Assembly: GCA_027405735.1 (NCBI GenBank) | Contig: JAPEHQ010000013.1 | Span: 310,001 to 374,000, forward strand | Reading direction: 5' to 3' | DNA length: 64,000 nucleotides | Source of the DNA: Mucor racemosus | Lineage: Eukaryota > Mucoromycota > Mucoromycetes > Mucorales > Mucoraceae | Shown here: positions 6,011-62,660 of the stretch, in pieces | Layout: each line of letters begins with the position of its first letter | Position numbering within the stretch: position 1 is the stretch's first letter | Program-made: the position numbers and the translations under genes | The notes under the pieces: generated by a model | The model's database searches: none | The model's input: only the letters and a program-made list of their open reading frames with translations | Told to the model about the DNA's origin: nothing

Positions 6011-6015
6011 TATTA
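6011..6015. repeat. Left flanking pentamer TATTA
   Basis: The same pentamer is found at 8915-8919 (between the copies) and 11819-11823 (right edge). Sequence to its left differs from that at the other two junctions, and sequence to its right matches only the middle junction. This fits a crossover core or short target repeat used by the recombinase. Confidence 0.7.
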
Positions 6016-6025
6016 TTTTGTGTCG

Positions 6026-6139
6026 AAGTCCTCGGAAGTCCCGGAAGTCCCCTACACGATTAGAACCCAGTATGCTAATAAGCTCACTTATTTGAGAAAC
6101 AACCGTAAATAAGTGCACTTATTTACGGATCAAGTCCCC
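6026..6139 (+). promoter_or_regulatory. Left-end AAGTCC(C) motif cluster of Crypton copy 1
   Basis: AAGTCC occurs at 6026, AAGTCCC at 6036, AAGTCCCC at 6045 and AAGTCCCC at 6132. The first three are 9-10 bp apart, about one helical turn. Two are preceded by G to give GGAAG, whose complement CTTCC is the known core recognised by yeast Gcr1. The cluster is repeated at 8930-9043 in copy 2. Candidate recombinase binding sites; the function is inferred. Confidence 0.5.
6103..6128. repeat. Perfect 26-bp palindrome in Crypton left end
   Basis: CCGTAAATAAGTG is followed directly by its reverse complement, with no spacer. A related CACTTATTT word lies just upstream near 6086. The identical palindrome occurs at 9007-9032 in copy 2. 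It sits between the AAGTCCC motifs and the 3' end of the recombinase gene, so it might be a protein-binding site, a hairpin or part of the transcription terminator. Confidence 0.75.
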
Positions 6140-6344
6140 AGGGAAAAAATAATAAATTTATGTCAATACAATCATGGCAAGATCGACTTTATTTTGTAAA
6201 ATGTTATGCTTAGACTTCAATATGATATTATGATACTTGTTGTATTTACAGTAAGCTGAATGATGTTTATTTATTGAATATATATGTATATATAAAAATA
6301 ATAATAAAATATAAAGAAATGCAAAGAAAGAATAGAAAAAGCTA

Positions 6345-8704
6345 TTACAATGAGCCATCATTGACTCCAAAGATTTCAATTTTGTTATTCGCCAACCAAT
6401 GCAACGAGTATCCTTTCTGTGATCTTCTTCGTTCTGCAATATTTACTGCAGTTTCTAAACTAATGTTCCTTTTCATGGCGTAATCCTCGATTGTCTTGAT
6501 GATAAGTTTTCTTCTATTGAAGAACTTCTTTTCCTTCTCTGCTCGTCTCCATCTTGTTCCAAACTTTTCTTCCAAATCTTGTACCGCATATCCACCGCAC
6601 AAACCATGTTTCCACTCTCTCCACAAGTCTTTGATGGACACAATTCCTCGACTCATTTGGTAATGTGGTACCTTTTCTGTAACTTCAAGAGAATTTGATG
6701 ATGATGAGGATAATGTTGGTGGTGGTGGATTGGAATTTGACATCAAGTTTTGTTGTGGTTTTGTGGTTGCTGAGATGTGAGATTGGCCATTTTGTAAATC
6801 TGGTAAGTTCACGCTGAGGTTTATACTTGCTTGACCTGTAATTAGACGGGTTATATAATCATTAGTTGTTTCTTGAGTAGTGAGATGATCATTCAATTTT
6901 GAAGAAAGGTCATTATGCATTATGCGTATCTTTTCCTCTAAAATTGGAACACAACGTTGGAGCAAAATGTTTGCAGGGTCATTGTTATCTTTCATGATCA
7001 CTGTCATGCGTCTTTGAAGAAGATTTATTAGTTTATACTATATAAAACACAAACAAGTGCTTACTCTTTATATTCTAAAAACATAGGATTAGAAAACAAT
7101 TCATTTTGCCATAATGGATGATTGGGGAATTTCTCCATCATCACAATTGAATCTTGAATAATAATTTTTCTCAACATAAAAAACAGTTGAAAGCAAGCTT
7201 TTGCAGCCACGGTAACTTCCATAGGGTCACCATTATTCTTACCAACATTCTTAGCTAGTAATCGATCGTTCCATTCATCCAGTAGAGGAAAAATCAACTT
7301 GGTCAAATCTTCAGGAGGATCCAGTGAGGCCCTGGGAATGTAAAATTGTCCTTGCTGAATAGTAAAACCCGCCATTGCTCGCATTGCTTCCCTGGGCAAA
7401 CCAGTAAGGTAAGCACCATTCATTGTTGTGTTATTCCAACGACCGAGACGACGAATTTGGTCTTCGTGAACACCAGCAAGATCAGCCATCCTCGCAGAAG
7501 AGCCACGGTTTATATGTGTTTTTGTTTTAGAGAAAATTTTTGCTCCATCTAATCCTCTTATAACGGCATCACGATGGCTGTTGTAGCTCCAGATTTTCTT
7601 TAAATCCTGGTTATCAGATTTAAAAAGCTTTATAAAATACCAATTATGAGAAGTAGTGAAGTCGGGAAACGGCTCATTCTCAACATGAAAACGCCAAAAC
7701 AAATATAGGCCAAGAGACATTATAGGGCAAATTTCAACGCGAGTGTTACGGATGCAGCCACCAAGTTCCAAGCGGTTATTTTTGTTTGTTTTTCCCTGTC
7801 GCAACACCATCACCAGAGCAGGACATTCTATGTCAGGCCTGATACTCTCATTATCTAAATTAACTGTTTGAAAATCTGTCAATTCAGCATGCCTGATAGA
7901 TTGTCCTCGTAGTAGAAAATAATGGGAGAAAAGAAATGCGGCAGCATCTCTCAAGTTTTCTCCATGATTTCTTTGGCTATTCAAATAGAACTGTATGACA
8001 TTTGCTACTTGATCTAATGAAGTATAACCATCGGCAAGTGTTCCTTCTCCACGATCTTCGCAATTAGATCTTTTGGTCTGGAATTCTCGTTCTTTAGCAC
8101 TTTTCAATACGCTTGCAATTACTTTTCTTGGATTTTTATTACAATTTATTTTCTTTATAACTTGTGTCTTGTATAGATCTGTAATTGCTGCTATGTATTG
8201 TTCGACAGTTGAAAATTTGATTCTTTGAGCTGCTTTTGTTTTCGTTTTTCTGCGAGAGAAACGATTTAAAACCTGGGATAATAAGGGCGTACAAGACAGT
8301 TAGTATCAAAAGCTAAATTCATTAGCAATATTCTTTGCTTTCACCTCCTTGTGTAGAAAATAATTTAATTTTTCCCCAGAAACAATTCCTCTTTGCAATT
8401 TATCTTCATGTACAAAGGTTTTCTCTGCCCATGTAAGAAACTCTTTAGCTTTCGCTGAATATGCTTTTTTAGTGTTTATGGGCCTATTATCTTGAGCTTG
8501 TTCAGCAGTAATTTCAAGACTCCTTGCCATGTCATATATTACATTGGAACCATCATTTTGGTTGTTGTCAACCATATCAGTATTGACCGTATCAATATCA
8601 TTAGTGACAATCATATTGATCATATCAATATCATTATCAATCAAGGTAGAAGATGAAGCGGACATTCTACTATCAATAGATGCAGTTGCAGTTTTCTTAG
8701 TCAT
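6345..8704 (-). CDS. Crypton tyrosine recombinase with GCR1_C domain, copy 1
   Basis: Integrase/transposase of the element. Three exons: 8704-8345, 8272-7065 and 7011-6345, giving 744 residues. Intron 1 (72 bp) contains a textbook TACTAAC branch site. Residues 65-100 hold the N-terminal helical region (INTKKAYSAKAKEFLTWAE) that precedes the catalytic part in Cryptons. Catalytic residues seen: Arg in LLRGQSIR (242/247), the H-x-x-R box HINR (373-376), Trp in LGRWN (399) and the likely nucleophile Tyr in GAYL (408), followed by LPREAMRAMAGF, which resembles other Cryptons. A proline/serine linker leads to a GCR1_C-like domain at about 642-720 (GIVSIKDLWREW...RRAEKEKKFFNRRK). All catalytic residues are present and there is no stop or frameshift, so the copy looks competent. 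Confidence 0.9.
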
Positions 8705-9006
8705 TGTATAAGTGGATTATTCTTTTTCAAATGGTTTGTTTATTATTTATTTGTTAAAATTAAGAATATTCTCTTCGATGACAGCTCTCAGTAATATTTA
8801 TTTGTGAAACATTTCATGCAGAAAGCTGATCATAAGACATTTATTGATTTGAAGTCCCTCATTAGGGTGGGACTTGAGTCCGGGACTCAGTATGCGAACT
8901 TGAAGATAAGTCCCTATTATTTTGTGTCGAAGTCCTCGGAAGTCCCGGAAGTCCCCTACACGATTAGAACCCAGTATGCTAATAAGCTCACTTATTTGAG
9001 AAACAA

Positions 9007-9032
9007 CCGTAAATAAGTGCACTTATTTACGG
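9007..9032. repeat. Perfect 26-bp palindrome, copy 2
   Basis: Same sequence and relative position as the palindrome at 6103-6128, offset by exactly 2,904 bp. Confidence 0.75.
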
Positions 9033-9248
9033 ATCAAGTCCCCAGGGAAAAAATAATAAATTTATGTCAATACAATCATGGCAAGATCGACTTTATTTTG
9101 TAAAATGTTATGCTTAGACTTCAATATGATATTATGATACTTGTTGTATTTACAGTAAGCTGAATGATGTTTATTTATTGAATATATATGTATATATAAA
9201 AATAATAATAAAATATAAAGAAATGCAAAGAAAGAATAGAAAAAGCTA

Positions 9249-11608
9249 TTACAATGAGCCATCATTGACTCCAAAGATTTCAATTTTGTTATTCGCCAAC
9301 CAATGCAACGAGTATCCTTTCTGTGATCTTCTTCGTTCTGCAATATTTACTGCAGTTTCTAAACTAATGTTCCTTTTCATGGCGTAATCCTCGATTGTCT
9401 TGATGATAAGTTTTCTTCTATTGAAGAACTTCTTTTCCTTCTCTGCTCGTCTCCATCTTGTTCCAAACTTTTCTTCCAAATCTTGTACCGCATATCCACC
9501 GCACAAACCATGTTTCCACTCTCTCCACAAGTCTTTGATGGACACAATTCCTCGACTCATTTGGTAATGTGGTACCTTTTCTGTAACTTCAAGAGAATTT
9601 GATGATGATGAGGATAATGTTGGTGGTGGTGGATTGGAATTTGACATCAAGTTTTGTTGTGGTTTTGTGGTTGCTGAGATGTGAGATTGGCCATTTTGTA
9701 AATCTGGTAAGTTCACGCTGAGGTTTATACTTGCTTGACCTGTAATTAGACGGGTTATATAATCATTAGTTGTTTCTTGAGTAGTGAGATGATCATTCAA
9801 TTTTGAAGAAAGGTCATTATGCATTATGCGTATCTTTTCCTCTAAAATTGGAACACAACGTTGGAGCAAAATGTTTGCAGGGTCATTGTTATCTTTCATG
9901 ATCACTGTCATGCGTCTTTGAAGAAGATTTATTAGTTTATACTATATAAAACACAAACAAGTGCTTACTCTTTATATTCTAAAAACATAGGATTAGAAAA
10001 CAATTCATTTTGCCATAATGGATGATTGGGGAATTTCTCCATCATCACAATTGAATCTTGAATAATAATTTTTCTCAACATAAAAAACAGTTGAAAGCAA
10101 GCTTTTGCAGCCACGGTAACTTCCATAGGGTCACCATTATTCTTACCAACATTCTTAGCTAGTAATCGATCGTTCCATTCATCCAGTAGAGGAAAAATCA
10201 ACTTGGTCAAATCTTCAGGAGGATCCAGTGAGGCCCTGGGAATGTAAAATTGTCCTTGCTGAATAGTAAAACCCGCCATTGCTCGCATTGCTTCCCTGGG
10301 CAAACCAGTAAGGTAAGCACCATTCATTGTTGTGTTATTCCAACGACCGAGACGACGAATTTGGTCTTCGTGAACACCAGCAAGATCAGCCATCCTCGCA
10401 GAAGAGCCACGGTTTATATGTGTTTTTGTTTTAGAGAAAATTTTTGCTCCATCTAATCCTCTTATAACGGCATCACGATGGCTGTTGTAGCTCCAGATTT
10501 TCTTTAAATCCTGGTTATCAGATTTAAAAAGCTTTATAAAATACCAATTATGAGAAGTAGTGAAGTCGGGAAACGGCTCATTCTCAACATGAAAACGCCA
10601 AAACAAATATAGGCCAAGAGACATTATAGGGCAAATTTCAACGCGAGTGTTACGGATGCAGCCACCAAGTTCCAAGCGGTTATTTTTGTTTGTTTTTCCC
10701 TGTCGCAACACCATCACCAGAGCAGGACATTCTATGTCAGGCCTGATACTCTCATTATCTAAATTAACTGTTTGAAAATCTGTCAATTCAGCATGCCTGA
10801 TAGATTGTCCTCGTAGTAGAAAATAATGGGAGAAAAGAAATGCGGCAGCATCTCTCAAGTTTTCTCCATGATTTCTTTGGCTATTCAAATAGAACTGTAT
10901 GACATTTGCTACTTGATCTAATGAAGTATAACCATCGGCAAGTGTTCCTTCTCCACGATCTTCGCAATTAGATCTTTTGGTCTGGAATTCTCGTTCTTTA
11001 GCACTTTTCAATACGCTTGCAATTACTTTTCTTGGATTTTTATTACAATTTATTTTCTTTATAACTTGTGTCTTGTATAGATCTGTAATTGCTGCTATGT
11101 ATTGTTCGACAGTTGAAAATTTGATTCTTTGAGCTGCTTTTGTTTTCGTTTTTCTGCGAGAGAAACGATTTAAAACCTGGGATAATAAGGGCGTACAAGA
11201 CAGTTAGTATCAAAAGCTAAATTCATTAGCAATATTCTTTGCTTTCACCTCCTTGTGTAGAAAATAATTTAATTTTTCCCCAGAAACAATTCCTCTTTGC
11301 AATTTATCTTCATGTACAAAGGTTTTCTCTGCCCATGTAAGAAACTCTTTAGCTTTCGCTGAATATGCTTTTTTAGTGTTTATGGGCCTATTATCTTGAG
11401 CTTGTTCAGCAGTAATTTCAAGACTCCTTGCCATGTCATATATTACATTGGAACCATCATTTTGGTTGTTGTCAACCATATCAGTATTGACCGTATCAAT
11501 ATCATTAGTGACAATCATATTGATCATATCAATATCATTATCAATCAAGGTAGAAGATGAAGCGGACATTCTACTATCAATAGATGCAGTTGCAGTTTTC
11601 TTAGTCAT
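9249..11608 (-). CDS. Crypton tyrosine recombinase with GCR1_C domain, copy 2
   Basis: Three exons at 11608-11249, 11176-9969 and 9915-9249, each exactly 2,904 bp from its counterpart in copy 1 and with identical translation (744 residues). The R, HxxR, W and Y residues and the GCR1_C-like domain are all intact. The two genes point the same way, so transcription from copy 2 would run towards copy 1. Nothing distinguishes the copies in coding potential. Confidence 0.9.
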
Positions 11609-11755
11609 TGTATAAGTGGATTATTCTTTTTCAAATGGTTTGTTTATTATTTATTTGTTAAAATTAAGAATATTCTCTTCGATGACAGCTCTCAGTAATA
11701 TTTATTTGTGAAACATTTCATGCAGAAAGCTGATCATAAGACATTTATTGATTTG

Positions 11756-11823
11756 AAGTCCCTCATTAGGGTGGGACTTGAGTCCGGGACTCAGTATGCG
11801 AACTTGAAGATAAGTCCCTATTA
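11756..11823. promoter_or_regulatory. Right-end AAGTCCC / GGGACTT motif cluster and TATTA edge
   Basis: Within about 65 bp of the right edge are AAGTCCC at 11756, the inverse GGGACTT at 11773, GAGTCC at 11780, GGGACTC at 11786 and AAGTCCC at 11812, the last abutting the TATTA at 11819-11823. The same arrangement ends copy 1 at 8852-8919. The motifs face both ways here and one way at the left end. Likely recombinase recognition sites; this is an inference from position and repetition. Confidence 0.5.
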
Positions 11824-11905: not shown

Positions 11906-12039
11906 CATTGGCTTTCAAAGCTAAAAGATTGAAAATTGCTGCCTCTTTTTTTCGGTGATACGGTCAAACTATGATTCCCATTATATACAATTTATTCACT
12001 TTAGATTCAAACGAATTTAAAAATATATGCCAATGTATC

Positions 12040-12560
12040 TGATATATTCAATTTTAATCCAAAAACGCGTTTTCAGAAATATCTTATTTTTTTGCAGTTG
12101 ATATAACTTTTTCAGTGCTAAATGTTTCAGATATTTACAGGTATTTTCCTGCTAAAATTAGAAAATTTTAAGGATTCATATCTCTGCCAAACATTAAGCT
12201 ATATTAACATTTTCTAATGATGAAACATATTTATTTTGAAGTACTCTATAACACAATTCAATATAAAAAAATTATGAGCATTTTTATTTCTTTTACTTTT
12301 TTGATGTTTGTGTAGTAGATTTCAAAATATCAATTAAACTAAGCAGCATTTTTTTTACATTTATGCCACTCACCTTGGTCAGCTCTCTCAGACTCAATTT
12401 AGTTTCTTTCAAAACATTGATTTTTCGTGGAGATATCCTCAAAAATGTATAAAAAAGCAAAGTTACACTCAATAAAATGCAAAACGTTACACTCCATAAG
12501 TTAAAATGGATTTTTTTTAAAAAAAAATCGATTTCCAACTTTTTTCCCATGAATTTTTAA
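12040..12560 (-). repeat. Dispersed repeat family 2, copy 1
   Basis: Related copies lie at 13180-13700 (-), 37430-38310 (+) and 50700-51240 (-), with a fragment near 52290-52400. Read on the minus strand, a stretch near 12296-12450 stays open and encodes YTFLRISPRKINVLKETKL followed by SLRELT...NVKKMLLSL, which recurs in the other copies. It is either a decayed protein-coding mobile element or a repeat with accidental reading frames. Confidence 0.6.
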
Positions 12561-13179: not shown

Positions 13180-13700
13180 TTTGAATTTGGCTTTTACTGC
13201 TTAAATTCAAAAAGTTGAAACTTTGAGTCTTAATATTTCTGAAAAAAATTAAGATATACTAATACTTTCTAATAATGAAATTTATTTGTTTTGAAGAGTT
13301 TTATAATATATCTCAGTATAAAAAAATTCTGAGCATTTTTATTTTTTTTTCATTTTTTTGACATTTTTGTAGTAGATTTCAAAATATCCGTTAAATTGAG
13401 CTGCATTTTTTACATTTACGTCATTAAGCGCGTTTAGCTCTCTCGGATCCAATTTAGTTTTTTTAAAAATATTGATTTTTCGTGGAGATATCTTCAAAAA
13501 TGTGTACAAAGGGATACCTTTGCTTCTAACTTCAATTTTTCTCCTGCATACACTCATCCCAAATTCCGAATTTGAAAAAAAAAAATTGCACAAAAATGTC
13601 GTTTTCTCTACAAAAAATGCAGCTGGAGGGCTTAGCAATAACTCAGTCGATAGATAATTTTGCTGCGCATCCTTTTCATTACTTACCACTTTAATAAACT
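13180..13700 (-). repeat. Dispersed repeat family 2, copy 2
   Basis: Second minus-strand copy next to the first. The open stretch 13339-13689 encodes 116 codons including LYTFLKISPRKINIFKKTKL and NVKNAAQFNGYFEIYYKN. Upstream lies the sequence CAAATTCGGAATTTGGGAT, equivalent to the point where a solo LTR interrupts the copy at 37.4 kb. No start codon context or splice structure convinces me of a gene. Confidence 0.6.
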
Positions 13701-30699: not shown

Positions 30700-30960
30700 A
30701 TTGTTGACATTTATCATACGGCGGGCTGATGATAGGTTTGATACTACTGCAGATGGAACCAGTCAATCCAGTTTATGAAATTTGAATGAAAATACCAAGG
30801 AGCCATTTGTAAGTACTTAATAAGTTGGCCCTAGTAAAGCATTGAATAAATTAGCTTGGGACAAAGAAGAGGATAAAAAGACGGCAATAGGTTTCATTGA
30901 TGATGGTCATATTTATGTTTATGGTATTCGAAACGTAAGATTAAAGCTCAATGTAAGTTA
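30700..30960 (+). pseudogene. Dynein intermediate chain C-terminal WD40 relic, copy B
   Basis: Conceptual translation gives DGTSQSSL, a TGA stop at 30776-30778 where the expected residue is Trp, NLNENTKEPF, then ALNKLAWDKE near 30838 and GHIYVYGI near 30905, followed by a GTAAGTTACC donor-like sequence. The order (VDG-x-G-x-x-D-LWNLN, then ALN-x-V-x-W, then an SDG-x-x-x-Y-D blade) is the C-terminal end of cytoplasmic dynein intermediate chain. Retained splice-like signals suggest a genomic rather than cDNA-derived copy. Stops and frameshifts rule out function. Confidence 0.5.
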
Positions 30961-30989
30961 CCTCTAATGCAGTAATTATAGAGTAAGAC

Positions 30990-32170
30990 TATACTATCAT
31001 CAAATAAACTACTACACAACATTAACAACATGTATAAAGATTTACAGTAATAAACTTGAATCAAGTGGGTATAGCATTGTAAAATCTTGAAAAAGTTTTC
31101 CAGTATTAGAAAGTCTCTCATTTTTAAGACTCACAAGGCTTATAAGCGGAATATTAATTTAGAAAATTATTCTTGTTCAGATCATCAATTTTGACATTTT
31201 TAAATTTTTTTTTCTGATTTTGCAAATCTAGAGTTAATTATACTACCAATTATAAAAGCAAAAAATATACACATATAGAGAATTTAGCGCTCTATTTGCT
31301 CAATAAAAAATAATAAGCATTTTTATTGCAAAACATTACATGAAAATCCTTTAATCAAAAAACCGTTTTTGGGCCAAAAGTACAAAGTTTCATTACTTAA
31401 TATTTAATATTAAGTTTTCATAAAGTGTGTATTATCTATAGTTACGATTTTCTCTCATAATGTAGTATATTTAAACGTCGATTTTGGTATCAAAATTTGA
31501 TTTTTCTGTTTTTTGATCAAAATCATGAGTGTTGGTAAGGATGAAATGAGCCCCGAAAATGTCCGCTACAAAATCTGAATTTTCAGATCGCACGTGGTTA
31601 AATATAAGAAAAGCTAAAAAAAAACATCTTTTTATTTAAAATTTAAATATACTGTGCCATAGTATAAAAGATTTAGCCGTTCAATCTTGCTATGCTCAAT
31701 TACGGCATTGCTCGAAGGGCTCGCTTTTGCAATTTTTTAACGAATCTATGATATGACAGACGGTTTTTCTGGTAGAAAGATTTATGCGCTGTAATGCTGC
31801 CTTTGACATTGGCTGAAATGAGCAATTTAGCAGGGTTTTAATTTCGCTAAATAATGGAAAGCCTTAAAAATCCTTTTCTACGTGTGTTGTTCCTCTCTTT
31901 TTGTTTTTATATTATTCTAAAAATATATTCACTGTTTGATAACGTATGTCAGACTATTATCAAGCTGGTATTCTTTTCTTTTATCTAAATAAGCATGCTA
32001 ACATAAGGGACTAATGTTTTTAATATAGGTAGCAGTCTATATTAGAGACTGATATTTTCATTTAACCGCATTCTAAGATCAAATATCATTATTTACTACT
32101 GTATTGTTGGACGTATTTCGTGATTACAAGATCAGATCGAAGGCAATAATATTTATATCTGCTCAATGCA
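30990..32170 (+). repeat. Dispersed repeat family 1, copy B
   Basis: Runs from ATAGAGTAAGACTATACTATCATC through CCGCTACAAAATCTGAATTTTCAG, GCTCGCTTTTGCAATTTTTT and TGACATTGGCTGAAATGAGC to TTGTTGGACGTATTTCG. It directly follows the dynein-like relic, as in copies A, C and E. Confidence 0.7.
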
Positions 32171-34379: not shown

Positions 34380-34630
34380 TTATCATAAGGCGGGCTGATG
34401 ATACTTTTGGTACTGTTGTAGATGGAATCAGTCAATTTGATTTATGAAATTTTAATGCAAATTCCGAGGAACCATTTGTAAGTACGTAAGTTGGTTCTGA
34501 TGAAGCATTGAATAAATTGGCTTAAGACACAGACGGCAAAAAGGCGGCAATAATAGGTCCCAGTGATGACCATGTTTATTTTTATGATATTGCATATTGG
34601 AGAAGAAATAAGAGTAAAACTCAATGTAAA
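34380..34630 (+). pseudogene. Dynein intermediate chain C-terminal WD40 relic, copy C
   Basis: Reads GTVVDGISQFDL, a TGA at the same Trp position as copy B, NFNANSEEPF, then ALNKLA with a stop, and a DDHVYFYDI-like end. The shared TGA shows that both copies descend from an already broken ancestor. Not functional. Confidence 0.5.
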
Positions 34631-34679
34631 TCAACTCTAATGCAACACTTATAAAGTAAGACTATATTATCATCAAATA

Positions 34680-35930
34680 AACTACCACACAATATTATTG
34701 ACATGTATAAAGGTTTACAGTAATAAGCTTGAATCAAGTGTGTACAGCATCGTAAATTCTTGAAAAAGTTCTCAAGTATTATAAAATCTCTTATTTTTAA
34801 GTCTTACAAGGCTTATAAGCGGAATATTAATTTAGAAAATTATTTTTGTCCAGATCCTCAATTTTGACATTTTTTAAATTTTTTTTTCTGGTTTTGCAAA
34901 TCTAGAGTTAATTATACTACCAATTATAAAAACAATAAATGTACACATATAGAGAATTTAGCGCTCTATTTGCTCAATAAAAAAAAACAAAGATTCTTAT
35001 TGCAAAATATTACATGAAAATCCTTTAACCAAAAAACCGTTTTTTGGGCAAAAGTGCAAAATTTCATTACTCAGCATTTAATATTAAGCTTTTATAAAAT
35101 GTGTATTAGCTATGGCTACAATTTTCTCTCATAATGTAGTATATTTAAACGTCGATTTTGGTATCAAAAATTGTTTTTTCTGTTTTTTGATCAAAATCAT
35201 GAGTGTTGGTAAGGATGAAATGAGCCCCGAAAATGTCCGCTACAAAATCTGAATTTTCAGATCGCACGTGGTTAAATATAAGAAAAGCTAAAAAAAAGCA
35301 CCTTTTTATTTAAAATTTCGATATACTGTACCATAGTATAAAAGATTTAGCCATTCAATCTTGCTATGCTCAATTACGGCATTGTTCTACGGGCTCGCTT
35401 TTGCAATTTCTTAATGAATCTATGATATGACAGACGGTTTTTCTGGTATAATAATGTATGTTTCTATGATAACAGATATTGCCTATTATTTTGTTTAGTT
35501 TATAGTTCATGGCTCCTCATGCGCTGTAATGATGCTTTTACATTGGCTGAAATGAGCAATTTAGCAGGGTTTTAATTGTACTAAATAATGTAAAGCCTTG
35601 AAAATCCTTTTCTACGTGTGTTGTTTCTCCCTTTTTGTTTTCATATTATTCTAAGAATGCGAATATATTCACTGTTTGATAACGTATGTCAGATTATCAA
35701 GCTGGTATTCTTTTCTTTTATCTGAATACGCATCATGCTAACATAAGGGACTAATGTTTTTAATATAGGTAGCAGTCTATATTAGAGGCTGATATTTTTA
35801 TTTAAATGCATTATGAAATCAAATATCATTATTTACTACTGTATTGTTGGACGTATTTCGAGATTACCAGATCAAATCGAAGGTAATAATATTTATATCT
35901 ACTCAATAAAAAGCTAGAGTTGGCTAAAAA
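34680..35930 (+). repeat. Dispersed repeat family 1, copy C
   Basis: Aligns by eye with copy B over its whole length, with an extra ~60 bp near 35450-35515 (TATGTTTCTATGATAACAGA) that is also present in the copies at 60.98 and 63.6 kb. Confidence 0.7.
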
Positions 35931-37429: not shown

Positions 37430-38310
37430 CCTCACATATCCCACTTCCTGGATTTTGAGAGAAAACGAGATTTTTGTCAATTTTTTTTTCGAATTCAGTG
37501 TTATATCAGAATCTAGATATAGCGCTACAGTAGTCGTATTATCAGGATATATATTGTTGTTATTGTCACACCATTAATAGCTATTATATCACTTGATAAT
37601 CTCTTCTATATAATCTCATTCTCTACATTGAATAAAACCTCGCCTTTTACTCTTGTCTAATTCTTATTAGTTTTGGTAAAACATTTAGAATTTGGGATAA
37701 AGGTATGTAGGGAAAAAATTGAAGCTAAAAGTAAAGGTATTTCTTTATACACATTTTTAAGGATATCTCCACGAAAAATGGATATTTTTAAAAAAACTAA
37801 ATTGAGCCTAAGAGAGCTCAAAGAGTTTGATGACATGAATGTAAAAAAAATGCTGCTCAATTTAACGAATATTTTGAAATCTACAAAAATGTCAAAAAAA
37901 TAAAAAATAAAATAAAAGTGCTCAGAATTTTTTTATACTAATATATGTTATAGAGCACTTTAAAACAAGTAAGTTTTATTATTAAAAAGCGTTAGGATAG
38001 TTTAATTTTTTGCAGAGATATGAAGTCTCAAATTTTTCAATTCTTTAGCAGTGAAATACGCGTAAAAATCTGAAACATTAGCACTGAAAAATTAATATCA
38101 ACTGCAAAAAATAGGATATTTCCGAATACTCTTTTTTAGATTAAAGCTGAACATATCAGGTACATTGGCATATAATTTTTTCTTGGTGTTATTTAGTGAA
38201 AAAAAAAGTAGAGCAGGGATGAAAAGTGAGACACAGTTTTTAAAGAAAAAGAAGCGAATTTTACTTGTTTTTCAGTCTTTTGTGAGATGTAGTATAAAAT
38301 TACGAATAGG
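37430..38310 (+). repeat. Dispersed repeat family 2, copy 3 (with solo LTR inside)
   Basis: Plus-strand copy. Its open stretch 37673-37903 encodes LYTFLRISPRKMDIFKKTKL and NVKKMLLNL. Further on, 38165-38392 encodes SRAGMKSETQFLKKKKRILL, which is also present in the copy at 50740-50925. A solo LTR interrupts the left part at 37499-37683. Confidence 0.65.
37499..37683 (+). mobile_element. Solo LTR related to the gypsy element at 55.2 kb
   Basis: 185 bp starting TGTTATATCAGAATC and ending AGTTTTGGTAAAACA. Both ends and the TGAATAAAACC...CCTTTTACTCTTG block match the 181-bp LTRs at 55204 and 60737, while the middle has diverged. Flanks TTCAG (37494-37498) and TTTAG (37684-37688) form a 5-bp duplication with one change. 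Family 2 copy 2 shows the unfilled site. Confidence 0.75.
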
Positions 38311-38608
38311 TAGCATAATGTGGTCAATTCATGTATACTTTGCAGTGCCTAAGGTATATCTTCACAGCTGTTCAGGGTTGAGTTGGTTCTAGCAAAAATG
38401 GTTCGCTCTGATTTGAATGACTTAAAAATTTGAAAATTAATGTATTCGAAGATTCTCAAGTGGGAATATAATACAAACAACTATCAGGACTTCAAAATGG
38501 GGGATTGTTTTCTGATTTGCGGCACAATATAAAAAGTTTATATAAAATTATTTATTACTAATATGCTTCAAAACTATAATAATAAGGAAATGGAAAGGGG
38601 TAGAAAAT

Positions 38609-50700: not shown

Positions 50701-51240
50701 CTTCAAGTAGGGAGCTCGCCCTCAATTCTATAGCTAATATTATACTTTACGCATTTTGATATACACCTTAGACACTGTAAAATAGGTATAAATTAGCCGC
50801 ATTATGTTACCTATTCGTAATTTTATACTATATCTCACGAAAGACTGAAAAACAAGTAAAATTCGCTTCTTTTTCTTTAAAAACTGCGTCTCACTTTTCA
50901 TCCCTGCTCTACTTTTTTTTTTCACTAAATAATACCAAGAAAAAATTATATGCCAATGTACCTGAGATGTCCAACGTTAATCCAAAAACAAGTATCCAAA
51001 AATATCCTATTTTTTGCAGTTGATATTAATTTTTCAGTGCTAATGTTTCAGATTTTTACGCGTATTTCACTGCTAAAGAATTGAAAAATTTGAGACTTCA
51101 TATCTCTGCAAAAAATTAAGCTACCCTAACACTTTCTAATAATAAAATTTACTTGTTTTAAAGCACTCTATAACATATTTGAGTATAAAAAAATCCTGAG
51201 CATTTTTATTTTTTTTTATTTTTTTGACATTTTCATAGTA
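50700..51240 (-). repeat. Dispersed repeat family 2, copy 4
   Basis: Minus-strand copy containing the conserved SRAGMKSETQFLKKKKRILL frame (50740-50925) and the non-coding part shared with 37.95-38.15 kb. The ISPRK-encoding part is missing or truncated here. Confidence 0.6.
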
Positions 51241-51973: not shown

Positions 51974-52289
51974 GTCGTCAGATATAAGTCTTGATAGCAA
52001 CCAGTGAGTGTATTCATAGAGTTTATGGATCCTTGATTATAATAGTGTGATTAGGTCCACATTATGTTTATTGATCTTTAACTATAAGTTGCTAGAATCG
52101 AAGCTCGGTAGAAAGTTTATATTAGTATGAATTAGCATATATTATTTAGTAGTGTAATGTGTATTTATGCCAGCTGTACTTTAATTGAGAATTAGATGAA
52201 ATGGAGATCAATATAGTGAATAAATGTGAACATATTCCACACAATAGTAGATTATAAATATTCGTTATATTGAGCAGCAATTTTTCTCA

Positions 52290-52760
52290 TATTCATACTT
52301 CATGTTATCCTGCTGAGAGCTCTATCGGACCCAATTTAGTTCATTTCAAAATATTGAGTTTTCGTGGAGATATCATCAAAAATGTTTTAAAAAAGGATAT
52401 CGCTCTTATAAAGAAATGCCTACATTTTTTAGTCTTAGCGTTCACTGCTAAAAAAACGTATTTATATTAAAAAGCAATGGGAACTACATGATTTATCGAA
52501 AGGTAAATCGTATAAAATTAATCAAATGAAAAAGTACCGTTTTATTATGAGCTTCTAGAGGGGGTTTATATACTAATTGAATGAGTGTATTAAATGTGAG
52601 TGATAATATAATTAGAATGAGCATTTGGATATTGTGTGGATATATTGGAATCATGCTTCTATGATTCAATAGTAGCATGATGATAGACGCATGGAATATG
52701 ACCTTGCTTGACTTGCATGTTGAACATCATGGTTTGACAGATGTTCTAAATTGGTAATTC
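52290..52760. repeat. Family 2 fragment and LTR-like repeat B relative
   Basis: 52290-52400 matches the ISPRK-encoding part of family 2 on the minus strand. From about 52490 to 52740 the layout (CATGCTTCTATGATTC, TAGCATGATGA) resembles repeat B. Edges are unclear. Confidence 0.4.
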
Positions 52761-53376: not shown

Positions 53377-54312
53377 CTATCCTACCTTACCCATACGACG
53401 AATCATATCCAAAGAGGCTCCATTTAATTCTGTAATACGGGCACCTGAAATACAACCAGCATGTGTAGTATGAGGGCTTTTGACACCAACTTCAGCAAAG
53501 ACACAATGCAACGATTGATTTTGAGCAGCAAACGACATCTCTTCCTTTCTGGGGGCCTTGGCAGGCTTGAGAACCTTGATATTATACCAATTTCTATTAA
53601 TAGTAAAATTAGGAAACTCCTCCCCCTCGATCATGAAACGGTAGAAAAAATAAAATGCTACCGAACCCCAAACACAAACGCGCGCATCCTTATGCCTAAT
53701 AGCTCCACCGTACTGCGTTTTGTGGCTCTGGTTTATCTTACCACCGGTAAATTGAAAAACTAAAGCAGGACAATCCTTGGTGGCACCTTCATTATCAAAT
53801 TCAATCATTGAGCAGTATTGCAAGCTAACTCTTCTCAAGTTTTCGCCTCGCAACAACATCGAGTGATTGCAAATCACTGCCATTCGATCACGATAAGAGG
53901 CCTGGCCACCACCTCTCTTTTTAAAATAGTACATTGATAGAATAATGTACTGTTTGTAGGTGTAACCATCTTGGATACTGCTTTTAGCAGTATCAGCAAA
54001 TTGCTTTTCCTTAATCTCATTATAGATTTTGTCAAGGTTTCCTTCAAACATTTTGACACCGTATCCACAAGGATGGTTGGGATTTGTCTTCTCAGGCTTT
54101 TCTATGAGCTTCTGATGCTCCCAAAGATTGACTTCAGCCTGATCCTCTGTCTCGAGTTTTTTATCGAGATATTCATCGTTATCTATCTCATTTTTGGGCT
54201 CGTTTTCTGTAGCATTTTGAAGAAGAGATGACCTAGTAAATGATCCAGCCGCGCTAAAAAAAGAAATCGAAGATGAACTTTCACTAACAAACTTTGTAGC
54301 TTTTCTTTTCAT
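53377..54312 (-). pseudogene. Decayed Crypton-like tyrosine recombinase
   Basis: An open frame of 311 codons with the catalytic-domain layout of the Crypton at 6-11.6 kb: LLRGENLRR (cf. LLRGQSIRH), CPALVFQFTGGKINQ, GAIRHKDARVCVW, YRFMIEGEEFPNFTINRNWY and GARITELNGASLDMIRRMGK. It is clearly a different family member, not a copy of the tandem element. The HxxR box reads HAGC (Arg to Cys, one C-to-T change), and the frame stops just before the Trp/Tyr segment. The nucleophile and the GCR1_C domain are absent. The N-terminal 80 residues are acidic and unrelated. It is inactive as a recombinase unless an unseen exon supplies the end. Confidence 0.65.
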
Positions 54313-54519: not shown

Positions 54520-55203
54520 GCCTACTATGTATAAATATTTACAGTAATAAGCTTGAATCAAGTGGGTACAGCATCGTAAATTCTCGAAAAAGTTTTCAAA
54601 TATTATAAAATCTCTTATTTTTAAGACTTACAAGGCTTATGAGCGGAATATTAATTTAAAAAATTATTTTTGTCCAGATCATCAATTTTGACATTCTTTA
54701 ATTTTTTTTTTCTGGTTTTGCGAATTTAGAGTTAATTATACTACCAATTATAAAAACAAAAAATATACACATATACAGAATTTAGCGCTCTATTTGCTCA
54801 ATAAAAAATAACAAACATTTTTATTGCAAAATACTACATGAAAATCCTTTAATCAAAAAACCGTTTTTGGGCCAAAAATGCTAACTTCCATTACTTAACA
54901 TTTAATATTAAGTTTTTATAAAATGTGTATTAGTCATGGCTACAATTTTCTCTCACATTGTAGTATATTTAAACGTCGATTTTGGTATCAAAATTTGATT
55001 TTTCTTTTTTTTTTATCAAAATCATGAGTGCTGGTAAGGGTAAAATGAGTCCCGAAAATGTCCGCTACAAAAACTGAATTTTCAGACAGTACGTGGTTAA
55101 ATATAATAAAAGCTAAAAAAAACGCTTTTTTATTTAAAACTTAGATACGTATACCATAGTATAGGAGACTTAGCCGTTCAATCTTGCTATACTCAATTAC
55201 GAC
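54520..55203 (+). repeat. Dispersed repeat family 1, copy D, left part
   Basis: Interrupted at 55203 by the gypsy element; the right part resumes after 60922 and runs to about 61400. Joining the flanks restores the CAATTACG...TCGCTCTACGG order seen uninterrupted at 63525-63545. Confidence 0.75.
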
Positions 55204-55422: not shown

Positions 55423-58400
55423 ATGCAAACATTTCCCACCACCACCTCTGAAACCCATCATTTCGATGGTAAATCAACATCTGCAATGGATGTTGACGAT
55501 TGTTCTTCAGTTATTGAGGAAACCAATCTTTCACGCACTGATTTGCGCAAGCAAATCAACACGTTAAAGCTTCAGCTCGCAAGAGCAACACAACTTTTAC
55601 TCACGAGCAACAGTGAGGAGGCGAAAGCCGAAGTGATCAGATTGAAAGATCTAATCGCTTTATCCAATGAAGTTTACAATGTCATGCTTCCATCTGAAGT
55701 CCCTGAACCTGTAAATTCATCTACTTCTGCCTCTGTGAGCTCTAACGCTACAAGCAGTGATAACTTTGATCATACTAGTAGATCCAATAATACTAGCAAC
55801 TCCTTTCTTGTACCTAGCAGTCTTCCTTGGATACAATGGAAAGATCATTTTTTCAATCGCAAGGCAGCTGTATACGATACACCATTAGCTTGTCTGGATA
55901 TATTTGAGTCAGTTCTTGATGCCCATGGTCTAGAACTTGATCAACATTGGAGACGTTTGATTAAGCCTAGACTTTCTTCGTCAATGTTGGCCTGGTTAAA
56001 AACCGTAGATCAATCCTTTTCGTGGTTACAGTTTAAAGAAAAAGTAATAAGTAAATACGGCTTGTCGCCTGCTCAAGAAAAAGCAGAAGCTAAACTTAAA
56101 CTGCAGCAACTGCGTATAAAAAGGAACGAAAGCATCAATGAATATGTAGATCGTTTCAATGTTTTAAGAGAGAAAGCAAATGTAGTTGACACTACAGAAT
56201 TGGTAAAAGCTCTTCTTGCCCCATTACCACATGCTTTAAATGAAGCAATAAATATACATGTACTATTATGTGATGATCCCAACAAAGATACAGTTGAGTA
56301 TACAATCGAAAAACTCAAGATTGCATACGTGGACTACCAATCCAGACATTATTTGGATAAGTCTTTCTCCACGACTCTTCCATCATCTCCGCGTCGCCGA
56401 GAAGATCGTCAAACACGACATGCTAAACCATATGATCGTAATTCATCGGATGGATTCCCGAGAAAATTAGCTGCTCGTCCTAGTAACCAAGCAAAGCCCT
56501 CGTCTCGTAAGGAATCGCCATGGTGCGACATCCATAAATTTCATGGTCATGCCACTGCAGATTGTAGAGCGAATGCTCTTAACAATCCAGGTAATATGCC
56601 TACAGCCCCACGAACATGTTACACATGTAAAAAATCATGGGTACCAGGACACAATTGTTCCTCTAATGCTTCGAGTAAGCACAATCCACATCGTAAGTCT
56701 CATGACAAAAAACACCGCAACGGCTATCATTCCTCATCTTCTGGCCGTCATAGCTCATCTACCAAACACGTACGCCCACCGCTAGTACCAGGTACCAAAC
56801 CTTCCAAACGTCATTCATCAACTTCATCCTCGGAATCTCATAGTGATGGAAAGACAACATCTTCGGATATTGACATGGATGAGCAATCTGGTGATGAAAA
56901 TCTCGTGTACGCAGCTGCTGCCTTAGATCTTGATTCTAACGATCGCAAAGGAAAGAATAAAGCTGAATGTAAGTACAACGATGATTATTTTTGTCAGCGT
57001 CCTGATAACTTCATGTCTAATGATGCCATTTATCTACCTCTAACTGTAGAGAAAATAAAAGTATGGGCCCTCTTAGACTCTGGATGTACCTTTTCTGCCA
57101 TCTCGCCTCAATTAGCAAAACATCTTAATTTATCAATAAAAAAGAAAGCAGGTCGCGTTATGCTTGCTCAAAAAGATGTTAATTTACAAAGGATTGGCAA
57201 AACAGCTAAAAATTTAGAAGTTTATTACAATACTAAAACTATCTTTTCCAAATTTGAAATCTTTGAGATTGTCAATGACCTTCATGTTTGTATTGGTATG
57301 AATCTTCTTCCAAAATTAGGTATTCAGATATCTGGGTTAACATATGATTGGGATGAACATACAGGCCCTGAGATTCCTGCCATTGATCCTGAACCATATA
57401 AACCTAATGACTCACCTTTTGGTAACCCAAGTGAGAGAGCTCAGTTGTTAAAATATATTCAATCTTCAATTGATGCCAACAAATCTATTCCGCCAGGTGC
57501 TTACTGTAATCTACCTGACAGTGCCATCATTTTACCTATCAAAAAACATCTCACACACGACACATTTAAACCGCAATACCCTATTGCTGAAAGTCTCAAA
57601 CCAGTAGTGGCAGAGCAAATACAAAAATGGAAAGATAGTAAAATTATTGAGCGTGCGCCTCCCAACAATCCTCACAACTCTCCTCTATTACTTGTCCGTA
57701 AGAAAAATTCGCAAGGCGAGTATACAGGCAATGATTATCGTTGTGTGATCGACAGTCGCTTAATCAACAAAGCTCTTGATCCACGAAAAATTGACCGATA
57801 TCCTCTGCCTTTAATCAGCGAAATGCACCGTAAAATGTCCAAATTTGCACTTTTTTCTACCATTGACTTAAGCGCTTGTTACCATTCTTTTGCCATAATT
57901 TCGAAATACAGGCCTCTCACTGCATTTACTGATTTAAACGGATCGCAATGGATGTTCTCCAGAGCCCCTTTCGGACTCCGCCCACTCAGTAGTAGAGTAC
58001 AGAGGATACTTTCTACTTTGTTTGAAGATATTAGCGAGCATACTAGCGTTTTTCAAGATGATATCACGGTGCATACCTGTGCGGATCTTCAATTTCATGC
58101 AAAATGTGTCAAAGAGGTCATTAATCGACTCACCAAAGCTAATTTGCGCATGAATGTGGAGAAATTGCATTTAGCACAACGCTGCATCTACATCCTAGGT
58201 TTTTGTCTATCTGAAGCAGGTCTTCAGCTCGATCAACGCAAAGTTGCCAATTGCCTCAACTGGCCAGTTGAAGTTAAATCCTCGAAAGAACTTGCTTCTC
58301 GATTAGGTTTAATCAACTATTTTCGCGAGTCCATTCCAAACATTGCTACGCTCACAGCTAGCCTGAATAAATTACGCAATGCTCCTGACATTCGAAAAGT

Positions 58401-60447
58401 CTGGACAGCTGAACACAGTGAAGCTATGCGAAAATTGCAATTAGCCTTAGTTAGTGCTCCTGTATTACATGCACCCAACCTCAATCATCCGTTTCATTTG
58501 GTTACTGATAGTAGTGCTGTGGGCATCGGCTGCTGTCTATACCAAATAATTCATAATCGTATCTACTACATTGGTTTTCTGGCAAGATCACTCACACCCT
58601 GTGAACAACGATGGGGCATATTCAAACGTGAGCTACTTGCAGTTGTATACGCTTTCACTAAATATCGTCAATGGTTATATGGTCGTCCATTCCATTTATA
58701 TGTAGATAACAAAGCATTACTATTTCTTCATACACAAGAAAAAACCAACCGCATTATTGAAAATTTTTACGAAACCATTTATGAATTTACCTTTGATATC
58801 ACTTATTGTGAAGGTATAAAGAATATTCTAGCCGACCGTCTCTCGCGACTTTTCGATTCCCCTCAAAGTCTGGCGGGCGCTGGTTCATCCAAGAATGAGA
58901 ATGCTTCAAAGAAGTCTAAGTCCTTTGCAAAGGAATCTAAACGTCTAAATACCACAAAAGAAACAAAACATGGAAAAAATTTATCTGATTCCAAAACATC
59001 AGAATCCAATAATTTATACATTTGCGCCAGTCACCTAGATGTATTTGAAACGCCTAAATCAAATCAAGAAAAGATTCAATTACTTGAAAAGAGTCATCTA
59101 CTTGGCCATTATGGGGTAGGCGCAATGGAACGTATTATCCATCAAGATTATAGAATGCATTGGCCCAACTTGAGGGACGATATTACCAAGTTTGTGAAAA
59201 ATTGTCATCAATGCAGATTATACAATCCAGCCAAACATGTATTTCATCCACCTGTCAGTATTGCTCCAAATGGAGTATGGCAACATCTTGTCATGGATCT
59301 TGGTACCTTCAATGTTACAACTCCAAGAGGGAATAACTTCATTTTAGTGGTAGTCGATGTGTTCTCTAGATTTACCATATTAAGAGCGATCAAAGACAAA
59401 ACTGCATTATCTGTAGCTACAGAACTAGTATCTATCTTTTCGTTGTTCGGATACCCGTATATACTAGGTCATGATAACGGAAAAGAATTTTCTGCAAATT
59501 TATTGCAATGTATAACCGATCAATGCGGCATAAGCGAAAAGCTAAGTTTACCATTCAATCCCCTAGGTAATAGTGTGGCCGAGGCTACGGTAAAAACCAC
59601 CAAAAGAATCATTGTAAGGATGCTTAATGGATACGATGAATCATGGGATTTATATGTAAACAGCACAGCTCTTGCAATGAACTGTCATTATTCACGATTA
59701 CACAATATGAAACCATTCTGTGTCATGTTCTTTAGACAACCCAATACGTTCCACAATAATTACGCTAAACTAGCACCTAACTTTCCTGGAAAAAGCATTG
59801 ACCAGAAAGCGTTTGTCAAGAAACTTAGTTTGGTAGATCGTATCCTAATTCCAGCCATTAAAGAACAAATTGAAAGAACACAAAAAGCTGACAATGCTTA
59901 TTTCATGAAAAGACACAAAATACTTCAAAAACCTTTTCCTACTGGATCGGCAGTAATGATAAAAAATGTCGAAGGAAAGAATAGCAAAACTGATCCACTT
60001 TATGAAGGGCCATATACCATATGCGGTACTACAAAAAATGGTAGCTACATCTTGAAAGATCGTACAGACACCTTACTTGCGCGCGATGTGCCAACATCTC
60101 ATATCAAATTGATCCATGACGATTCAGTAAACCCAGAGGACTCTTCTGAAACCTATGAAGTGCAAGCTATTATAGATCACCGCGGGAAAGGACCAAAAAT
60201 AGAATATCTAACTCGATGGAAACATTTCAAAGAAGATGATGACACATGGCAAGCACCAGAAACATTCGATGGTACTGACATGATCAAGGCTTATTGGGCT
60301 AGACGAAATGTGGATCAAGAATTCAATCAAAACAAGCGAAGTACTAGAAAACGAGTGGCACCAAAATCAATCAACAAACGCAGAATACCGACTCGTGATG
60401 ATAAAAGCAAAACTCGAAAGAAATTCAAAGCAACCAACGTAGAATGA
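55423..60447 (+). CDS. Gag-Pol polyprotein of Ty3/gypsy chromovirus
   Basis: 1,674 residues in one frame, with no frameshift between gag and pol. Gag capsid-like region is at about 140-290 (WRRLIKPRLSSSMLAWL...INEYVDRFNVLRE); a C-x2-H-x4-H-x4-C knuckle starts at 368. The aspartic protease signature LLDSGCTFSAISPQ has its Asp near 552. Reverse transcriptase lies at about 730-930, with catalytic FQDD at 877-880 instead of the usual YxDD/FxDD with V or I. RNase H Asp is at 1029 (TDSSAVGIG) with YVDNKALLFL further on. The integrase HHCC zinc finger is at about 1225-1265, and the catalytic triad D1292, D1351, E1387 has exact DX35E spacing. A C-terminal chromodomain at about 1576-1628 (YEVQAIIDHRGKG...YLTRWKHFKEDDDTW) should target heterochromatin marks. 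No stops, so probably functional. Confidence 0.95.
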   Translation: MQTFPTTTSETHHFDGKSTSAMDVDDCSSVIEETNLSRTDLRKQINTLKLQLARATQLLLTSNSEEAKAEVIRLKDLIALSNEVYNVMLPSEVPEPVNSSTSASVSSNATSSDNFDHTSRSNNTSNSFLVPSSLPWIQWKDHFFNRKAAVYDTPLACLDIFESVLDAHGLELDQHWRRLIKPRLSSSMLAWLKTVDQSFSWLQFKEKVISKYGLSPAQEKAEAKLKLQQLRIKRNESINEYVDRFNVLREKANVVDTTELVKALLAPLPHALNEAINIHVLLCDDPNKDTVEYTIEKLKIAYVDYQSRHYLDKSFSTTLPSSPRRREDRQTRHAKPYDRNSSDGFPRKLAARPSNQAKPSSRKESPWCDIHKFHGHATADCRANALNNPGNMPTAPRTCYTCKKSWVPGHNCSSNASSKHNPHRKSHDKKHRNGYHSSSSGRHSSSTKHVRPPLVPGTKPSKRHSSTSSSESHSDGKTTSSDIDMDEQSGDENLVYAAAALDLDSNDRKGKNKAECKYNDDYFCQRPDNFMSNDAIYLPLTVEKIKVWALLDSGCTFSAISPQLAKHLNLSIKKKAGRVMLAQKDVNLQRIGKTAKNLEVYYNTKTIFSKFEIFEIVNDLHVCIGMNLLPKLGIQISGLTYDWDEHTGPEIPAIDPEPYKPNDSPFGNPSERAQLLKYIQSSIDANKSIPPGAYCNLPDSAIILPIKKHLTHDTFKPQYPIAESLKPVVAEQIQKWKDSKIIERAPPNNPHNSPLLLVRKKNSQGEYTGNDYRCVIDSRLINKALDPRKIDRYPLPLISEMHRKMSKFALFSTIDLSACYHSFAIISKYRPLTAFTDLNGSQWMFSRAPFGLRPLSSRVQRILSTLFEDISEHTSVFQDDITVHTCADLQFHAKCVKEVINRLTKANLRMNVEKLHLAQRCIYILGFCLSEAGLQLDQRKVANCLNWPVEVKSSKELASRLGLINYFRESIPNIATLTASLNKLRNAPDIRKVWTAEHSEAMRKLQLALVSAPVLHAPNLNHPFHLVTDSSAVGIGCCLYQIIHNRIYYIGFLARSLTPCEQRWGIFKRELLAVVYAFTKYRQWLYGRPFHLYVDNKALLFLHTQEKTNRIIENFYETIYEFTFDITYCEGIKNILADRLSRLFDSPQSLAGAGSSKNENASKKSKSFAKESKRLNTTKETKHGKNLSDSKTSESNNLYICASHLDVFETPKSNQEKIQLLEKSHLLGHYGVGAMERIIHQDYRMHWPNLRDDITKFVKNCHQCRLYNPAKHVFHPPVSIAPNGVWQHLVMDLGTFNVTTPRGNNFILVVVDVFSRFTILRAIKDKTALSVATELVSIFSLFGYPYILGHDNGKEFSANLLQCITDQCGISEKLSLPFNPLGNSVAEATVKTTKRIIVRMLNGYDESWDLYVNSTALAMNCHYSRLHNMKPFCVMFFRQPNTFHNNYAKLAPNFPGKSIDQKAFVKKLSLVDRILIPAIKEQIERTQKADNAYFMKRHKILQKPFPTGSAVMIKNVEGKNSKTDPLYEGPYTICGTTKNGSYILKDRTDTLLARDVPTSHIKLIHDDSVNPEDSSETYEVQAIIDHRGKGPKIEYLTRWKHFKEDDDTWQAPETFDGTDMIKAYWARRNVDQEFNQNKRSTRKRVAPKSINKRRIPTRDDKSKTRKKFKATNVE

Positions 60448-60922: not shown

Positions 60923-61400
60923 GTCGCTCTACGGCCTCGCTTTTGCAATTTTTTAATGAATATATGATATGATAGACGGTTTTCCTGGTAGAAAAATGTA
61001 TGTTTCTATGATAACATATATTGCCTATTATTATTTTGTTTAGTTTATAGTTCATGGTTCATGCGCTGTAATGCTGCTTTTGACATTGGCTGAAATGTCT
61101 AATTTAGCAGGGTTTTAATTGCACTAAATAATGCAAAGCCTTGAAAACCATTTTCTACGTGTGTTGTTTCTCTCTTTTTGTTTTCGTATTATTCTAAGAA
61201 TATATTCACTGTTTGATAAGATATATCAGACTATTATCAAGCTGGTATTCTTTTCTTTTATCTAAATAAGCATGCTAACATAAGGGACTAATGTTTTTAA
61301 TATAGGTAGCACTCTATATTAGGGGCTGATATTTTTATTTAACCGCATTCAAAGATCAAATATCATTATTTACTACTTACTACTTTATTGTTGGACGTAT
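60923..61400 (+). repeat. Dispersed repeat family 1, copy D, right part
   Basis: Continues from 55203: GCTCTACGGCCTCGCTTTTG through TGACATTGGCTGAAATG to TTGTTGGACGTATTTCTTG, as in copies B and C. Confidence 0.7.
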
Positions 61401-62660
61401 TTCTTGATCACTAAGGCCGAACTATGCTTCTCATATGCATAATGATCTGCACAGATGGGCGGAATAAAAAATCTGTGCAGATCAGGCAGCCCAGATCAGC
61501 AGAGCAATGAGATCAAGGCTTTTAAATCAATTTATTAAAGTATATCAATCATAATATAATTAATAACGAAGATTAATTTGAATGGTTTAAAGCAGATGTG
61601 AGCTACTCTGATTCAACAGAATTGCCTTATTGACGAGATACAGTATATTAATTTGACATTTGGGGTTTGAAAATTTTCTGCCCATGTTCTTCTTTTGGGG
61701 ACTAAATGGAAACAACGACAACAACCTGTTTGGTAATGCTAAAAGTATTTATGCCTTTGTAAATTTCTGTTTGTAACACACAAAATCTTTTTTCTTCCCT
61801 GCTCTTTCCTGGGTGTTACGCCAGGAGATTAGATCAATCTTAAAGCTAAAATATTTATCAAATCATTTAATAAAAATAAAGAAAAACTGTTATAAAATAA
61901 AAGAGCACACTAAAACTAAAGAACTTTATTATAAGATCGAAACATCTGCTTTTATATTTACATTCTCTAATTATATGACCTGTTTATATGAGTTTATTTA
62001 TATATATACATATATCCAATCAAGTCTAGGTGACACACACTAGTTTCACATTTCTGTATAAATGGAGCTTCATAACATAATACACAGCAATGTAGAACTT
62101 AACATATCAAACTGTGTTGTAATCTTAACCAAGGAATGCACCCAGATCTGTGGATGCAACACTGGGCTCTTTTATTCACATTTAAAACTACAACAAAAAG
62201 ACTAATATTTTTCTATAAACTGAAATCAAGTAGCAGGTACAAGTACATGTTTTTCCTATTGTTTATTTGAAAATAAATGATTAACTGTTAATGTTGGGGC
62301 GCGTTATAGTATCTTTTTCGAACAAAAAAAGCATCCAGGACGTAATCATTTTGTTCCATTATCTACGTTATAATCAGTGCTTTTTTGGTTTAAAATCGAT
62401 ATCTACCTGGAGAAGAACTGGTAATTATAAAAGTATGTATAGTATTGACTTGATTTGAATGAATAGATAAACTCATGTTAGTCTATTTAGTTTCTAAAAA
62501 GTATTTGTTTCTATTTAGTGGCCAACAGCTAAGAAGAGGAAAATAAGATGTTTTCTTGTATACCACTATCAACTTTCAAAGGTACACAATAATTATCACT
62601 TATTAGCTTGTTATTAATAATTGATTTTACTAATAAATTAATTTTTATAGGTCAAAAGTA
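61401..62660. other. Intergenic with hairpin; no recognised gene
   Basis: Contains the inverted repeat at 61444-61483 and GGGTGTTACGCC near 61812. No coding region is supported. Short AT-rich open frames show no motif. Confidence 0.35.
61444..61483. repeat. 13-bp perfect inverted repeat with 14-nt loop
   Basis: GATCTGCACAGAT at 61444-61456 and its exact reverse complement at 61471-61483. A stable hairpin in RNA or cruciform in DNA. It lies just beyond the end of the family 1 repeat, so it may mark an element end. Confidence 0.7.

Follow-up and report, generated by a model that had tools for sequence, protein, structure and literature searches.

How do two copies of a mobile element come to lie head to tail, identical to the last base and joined through a single short core? 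The question is raised by a 64,000-nucleotide stretch of the Mucor racemosus genome (assembly GCA_027405735.1, contig JAPEHQ010000013.1, positions 310,001 to 374,000; hereafter the window, in whose coordinates positions are given unless a contig is named), in which positions 6011-8919 and 8915-11823 agree over 2,909 bases with 0 mismatches and a period of 2,904. The locus thus reads TATTA, 2,899 bp, TATTA, 2,899 bp, TATTA across 6011-11823, and the sequences outside its outer cores are unlike each other. Base-level comparison shows that a first-pass annotation, made from the letters alone, had the coordinates and this layout exactly, and it was equally right that the repeated unit is a Crypton and that the middle junction equals the junction predicted for a circularized element. 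Based on the genome-wide evidence presented here, we show that the element is a CryptonF DNA transposon and that the window pair is one of seven such pairs. We propose that the pairs probably arise in situ, through the Crypton's own recombinase acting between copies of the same element after replication.

A tandem of two CryptonF elements

Each copy carries one predicted gene on the minus strand. In copy 1 (6016-8914) it spans 6345-8704 (exons 8704-8345, 8272-7065 and 7011-6345), and in copy 2 (8920-11818), which has the same sequence, it spans 9249-11608 (exons 11608-11249, 11176-9969 and 9915-9249, those of copy 1 shifted by 2,904). Splice sites were predicted from GT..AG borders, reading frame and a TACTAAC box, and the spliced product is a protein of 744 amino acids (aa) with a tyrosine-recombinase (YR) domain (Pfam NDC10_II, aa 212-518), the R..K..HxxR..Y signature of these enzymes and a GCR1_C domain (Pfam, aa 640-719, E 7e-23); the presence of both domains on one protein hinges on the predicted second intron. 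Pfam searches up to E 1 returned no domain besides these two, and phmmer comparison of the YR exon with PDB sequences gave no match up to the same threshold. A profile search matched Ndc10/CBF3 (E 6e-19), and its five further weak matches (E 0.19 to 0.84) were taken as chance. No terminal inverted repeat was found when 13-mers were compared in inverted orientation, with up to two mismatches, between the two 150-base ends, as the first-pass annotation had expected of a Crypton.

The element therefore belongs to CryptonF, a group described from fungi and oomycetes (Kojima and Jurka 2011, PMC3212892); in the parts of that survey considered here, its members likewise combine YR and GCR1_C in one protein, lack terminal inverted repeats and have short terminal direct repeats, 6 bp long in most. 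Insertion into microsatellites, as in CryptonV, does not describe it, since a complex repeat of about 1.1 kb holds 30 of its 34 sites. Nor is it a Starship: these are defined by a DUF3435 captain recombinase with large cargo, whereas the present element is 2.9 kb long, with one predicted gene in which Pfam recognizes NDC10_II and GCR1_C alone.

The motif AAGTCC occurs seven times per element, each at most about 125 bp from an end: at the left end of copy 1 on the plus strand at 6026, 6036, 6045 and 6132 (within 6026-6137), and at its right end at 8852 and 8908, plus inverted at 8870. These motifs are candidate protein-binding sites. A perfect 26-nt palindrome (6103-6128 and, in the second copy, 9007-9032) is kept in all 42 near-full copies of the genome; an older relative, L042, has only half of it.

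Seven pairs among 34 sites

The whole assembly (54 contigs, 53.2 Mb) was surveyed by a DNA search, which gave 43 candidates of which 40 were scored, and by whole-genome pattern scans for both ends. It contains 42 near-full copies, with 42 right ends and 42 left ends; one of the left ends (C7:73528) is an orphan outside the listed full copies, and in L040, itself a full copy, the left end is damaged. Once a copy on contig C33 is merged with a paired locus on contig C2, as explained below, the copies fall into 34 independent sites, 27 single and 7 paired. The pairs are head to tail in 7/7 cases, and no array of three or more occurs among the 34 sites. The window pair is thus not a one-off. The middle junction, GATAAGTCCC-TATTA-TTTTGTGTCG (core at 8915-8919, common to both copies), has seven exact copies in the genome and none in a reversed control, and an eighth match with three mismatches is the left end of L040; the circle junction is seen solely as this predicted junction within pairs.

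The first-pass annotation had named other copies ending elsewhere than at TATTA as the observation that would speak against it. Across the genome, TATTA bounds the element on both sides at 34/34 sites, which excludes coincidence, and the direct repeat extends to CTATTA at 33/34, the window site excepted.

The 744-aa frame is intact in 37 of the 42 copies when one fixed set of splice signals is applied, and shorter in four (L010, L024, L030 and L039); L040, whose first splice signal deviates, was left unscored. The Crypton is apparently intact and recently mobile. The intact copies include L041 (G000:C13:745563-750117), in which the second intron is broken by a 1,647-bp insert with the ends CAGTGACCCCC...GGGGGTCACTG adjoining TA, which presumably is a Tc1/mariner-like element. 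The orphan left end (G000:C7:73528) is perfect in sequence, and a decayed internal fragment (C7:79397-80645) lies at a distance of about 6 kb.

Twins are identical, sites are not

Within pairs the two copies differ by 0 bases in 7/7 cases. Between sites (L004, L040 and L041 left out), the difference averages 12 bases per element (median 8), and only 21/496 site pairs are identical; 23 haplotypes are distributed over the 34 sites. Two random sites would be identical with a probability of 0.037, and seven identical pairs would arise under free draws with a probability of 1e-10. Furthermore, two pairs (C8t and C1b) have private variants, which both twins carry and which are absent from the remaining 40 copies. 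Pairs are also in excess: if the ends of resident copies were just more targets, about 1.1 pairs would be expected, against the 7 observed (P 1.5e-4). Given the identical twins, the private variants of two pairs and the excess of pairs, the second copy cannot be a visitor drawn at random. It would have been made from the first, have come along with it as a dimer, or have been homogenized with it by conversion.

The 40 aligned copies contain 54 singleton variants, spread over 12 of the 26 unpaired copies, with 20 in L039 alone and none in the twins. The pairs therefore look young, or else continually lost or homogenized, although singletons are a weak clock here because they are so unevenly spread over the copies.

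One locus in a one-copy and a two-copy form

Contig C33 (26,814 bp) maps by its two 1.5 kb ends to C2:1549372-1579107 (29,736 bp). The difference in length, 2,922, corresponds to one element with its core (2,904) plus 18 bases; C33 has one element and C2 has two, and all three are identical. The interior was compared around the element only, where the 3 kb flanks differ by two homopolymer lengths and the cut edges alone. Compared with C2, one of the 1.5 kb ends of C33 shows 0 substitutions and nine single-base indels, including one at the edge. Most simply, the one-copy and the two-copy state of this locus would both have been present in the sequenced culture.

Origin of the pairs

Tyrosine recombinases swap strands between two short matching cores, with no bases gained or lost. 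We suggest that the Crypton enzyme would exchange strands within TATTA, usually inside CTATTATTTTG, a core common to the joined ends of the element and to its target, which is normally one nucleotide position in an abundant repeat of about 1.1 kb. After replication, a pair could then form by either of two routes: the left core of the element on one sister chromatid could be exchanged with the right core of the other, which would leave a pair and an empty site, or the element could be excised from one sister and insert at the terminal core of its twin, with the same outcome. Either way, the product would be two identical copies with a single core between them. We consider this in-situ origin the probable one; the anatomy, the core, the target, the seven identical pairs and the one-copy and two-copy contigs of one locus are observed, and the activity of the recombinase, the exchange between sisters and the order of events are inferred. 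Several considerations weigh against it. The chance calculations given above assume independent draws, and the underlying target count allows up to three mismatches. Repeated exchange should yield some arrays of three or more, and none is seen among the 34 sites. A dimeric circle, or later gene conversion between twins, fits the same data as an in-situ step. Finally, C33 looks thinly covered and unpolished, and could represent a collapsed tandem instead of a real one-copy variant.

The first-pass annotation had favored another origin, in which a circular Crypton, read here as one excised from another locus, inserts at the end of a resident copy. This agrees with the structure and the core, and it has an analog in the tandem arrays of Salmonella genomic island 1 (SGI1), as far as the account in PMC2297512 goes. 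However, a visitor drawn from 23 haplotypes would hardly have matched its host in 7/7 cases, still less have shared the private variants of C8t and C1b, so that later gene conversion would be required in most or all pairs; we regard this origin as improbable. A circle could also have been dimeric from the start, whether excised from an existing pair or formed when two circles recombined or one replicated, and have inserted whole at each of the seven sites. Identical twins and exact middle cores would both follow, and the haplotypes of five of the seven pairs recur at other sites, as expected if pairs travel: the window pair (C13) and C2t share one haplotype, also found at L005 and L006, and C1a, C19t and C11t match singles. 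Yet the haplotypes of the other two pairs occur at no other site, the dimer circles called for have left no direct sign and no trimer is found among the sites. The one and two copies at the C2/C33 locus also speak for a change in place, although loss after the entry of a dimer would do the same. On balance this explanation seems to us unlikely, though the least so of the rivals.

Duplication by the host without the recombinase, through replication slippage or microhomology-mediated template switching between the cores of 5-11 bp, followed by homologous loss or gain, would draw on the fact that every copy is flanked by cores as a direct repeat, and an existing pair can indeed change in number by homologous recombination over 2.9 kb. 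It would nonetheless demand seven precise events over 2.9 kb with error-free junctions, next to a gene whose protein has the fold of enzymes that carry out this very reaction, and we give it little credence. Homologous recombination alone is unlikely to start a pair, as the repeats that border a single copy are no more than 5-11 bp long; the unequal recombination that the first-pass annotation had named as its alternative thus lacks a substrate. As for the assembly, true singles might have been expanded, or longer arrays collapsed to two: identical twins of 2.9 kb are difficult to assemble, and the C2/C33 locus appears in both forms. However, the seven paired loci lie in separate places on six contigs, 27 further sites were assembled as singles and, C2/C33 aside, the flanks of the paired loci have no near-identical match among the flanks compared, which makes an artefact improbable.

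If pairs do form in situ, they may also be the element's means of multiplying, a notion we advance tentatively and with some doubt. Cut-and-paste movement of one copy brings a recombinase no increase in number. The element would be doubled in place and one circle released while the donor stays occupied, and this release would turn a conservative reaction into a net gain, in the manner of copy-and-paste. The one-copy and two-copy forms of the C2 locus would then be two states of such a cycle. How Cryptons gain copies is not addressed in the parts of PMC3212892 considered here. A single genome here provides a defined core, 34 occupied sites, comparable targets numbering about 1,400 and seven doublings that can be typed by their variants, so that it becomes directly testable whether tandem intermediates allow a conservative recombinase to multiply.

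Target site and core

At 30 of the 34 sites, alignment of the left flanks up to the junction places the element at one nucleotide of the repeat of about 1.1 kb, which rules out integration at random. The left flanks of these sites are mostly 74-88 % identical to one another, and the repeat spans, relative to the junction, about -1,000 to about +70 to +100. Rfam returned nothing at the gathering score for the repeat at the three of the 30 sites that were searched (L006, L021 and L033). The sequence GWACTATTATTTTGATTATCTCGACGAAAAA, with up to three mismatches, marks 1,428 single-core copies of the target, a count into which the right junctions of some occupied sites may have entered; the reversed control gave 0. 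The target letters preceding the core are the same in two older relatives whose left end can still be read, L042 (pieces of 87 and 91 % identity) and L044 (pieces of 81-86 % identity), so the preference predates the present burst.

The four sites outside this target are L020, L040, C11t and the window site itself. The first-pass annotation was sound on the anatomy of the locus, but it could not see from the window that the site is off target. Among these four, C13 and C11t are paired (2/4), against 5/30 of the sites in the usual target, but the counts are too low for a conclusion. The window site alone limits the core to TATTA: the left core (6011-6015) is preceded by the target base A, the sole case among the 34 sites without C, and the right core (11819-11823) is followed by A, the target reading ATTTC in place of TTTTG. 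All other sites permit CTATTA, and the whole of CTATTATTTTG is present in 23/34 reconstructed empty sites; the true core may be 5 bp or 6 to 11 bp long.

The exact 11-bp sequence CTATTATTTTG occurs 1,325 times in the genome (reversed control 387), and the longer motif CTATTATTTTGRTTATCTC 760 times (control 0). Occupation is favored at the longer motif with an odds ratio of about 4.7 (20/760 versus 3/about 523, p 0.005, Fisher's test), where about 523 is a subtraction (1,325 less 760 less 42), the 760 include right junctions of occupied sites and one of the three (L029) belongs to the repeat by its left flank. Insertion may thus need more than the 11-bp core, although such small numbers are only suggestive. 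Similar GATA words next to the core, in the target and at the right end of the element, were noticed by eye only.

Relation to known systems

In kind, the constituents are known: CryptonF itself, target-specific CryptonV, tandem Dada elements and SGI1 arrays. What appears to be new here is the choice of target together with the recurrence of identical twins. Judged by the parts of PMC3212892 considered, the present family departs from the CryptonF described there in its 42 near-full copies, its one preferred nucleotide in a dispersed repeat and its recurrent identical pairs; in the text of that paper the word tandem occurs once, in the title of a reference, and a circular intermediate is proposed for Cryptons by analogy with bacterial elements. 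In our searches of the open-licence PubMed Central literature we found no account of tandem Cryptons, of a CryptonF with such a target or of recurrent identical twins. CryptonV of cnidarians is also a YR transposon with a strict choice of target; its families, as presented in the portion of PMC8869645 consulted, target microsatellites, whereas the Mucor CryptonF targets one point of a repeat of about 1.1 kb. Preferring one landing point in a repeat is more familiar from transposons of other kinds. Dada elements of fish, according to the corresponding sections of PMC3706591, have a strict multicopy target and tandem insertions that share one target repeat, involving two different elements on chromosome 12 and two copies of one element on chromosome 3; they differ in their DDE-type transposase and in targeting small-RNA genes. 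SGI1 is a site-specific integrating element that forms head-to-tail arrays at its attachment site, but it is bacterial, and its arrays, in the part of PMC2297512 considered, reach up to six copies after conjugative transfer.

Other features of the window

Pieces of the target repeat lie at 12019-12456, 13218-13685, 37683-38399 (minus strand), 50726-51240 and 52244-52396, two of them immediately to the right of the tandem pair. They are 79-88 % identical to the majority sequence, and none reaches the target point.

L040, one of the off-target copies, is inserted in a different repeat. When its flanks are joined, they align over the junction with 34486-35845, an empty relative of the site (85 % over 1,367 columns) with the core at 35483 on the plus strand. 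Related pieces are found at 30821-31778, 62640-63639, 54523-55201 and 60923-61377. The last two bracket a 1,674-aa open frame (55423-60447, plus strand), which we take to resemble a Ty3/gypsy-type polyprotein. The repeat may thus be the long terminal repeat of that element, in which case L040 would sit inside such a repeat.

A second Crypton-like lineage is represented by a partial gene at 53377-54312 on the minus strand (NDC10_II, E 2e-18). Elsewhere in the genome it has relatives at six places (37-82 % identity) and, apart from the main family, several weaker matches.
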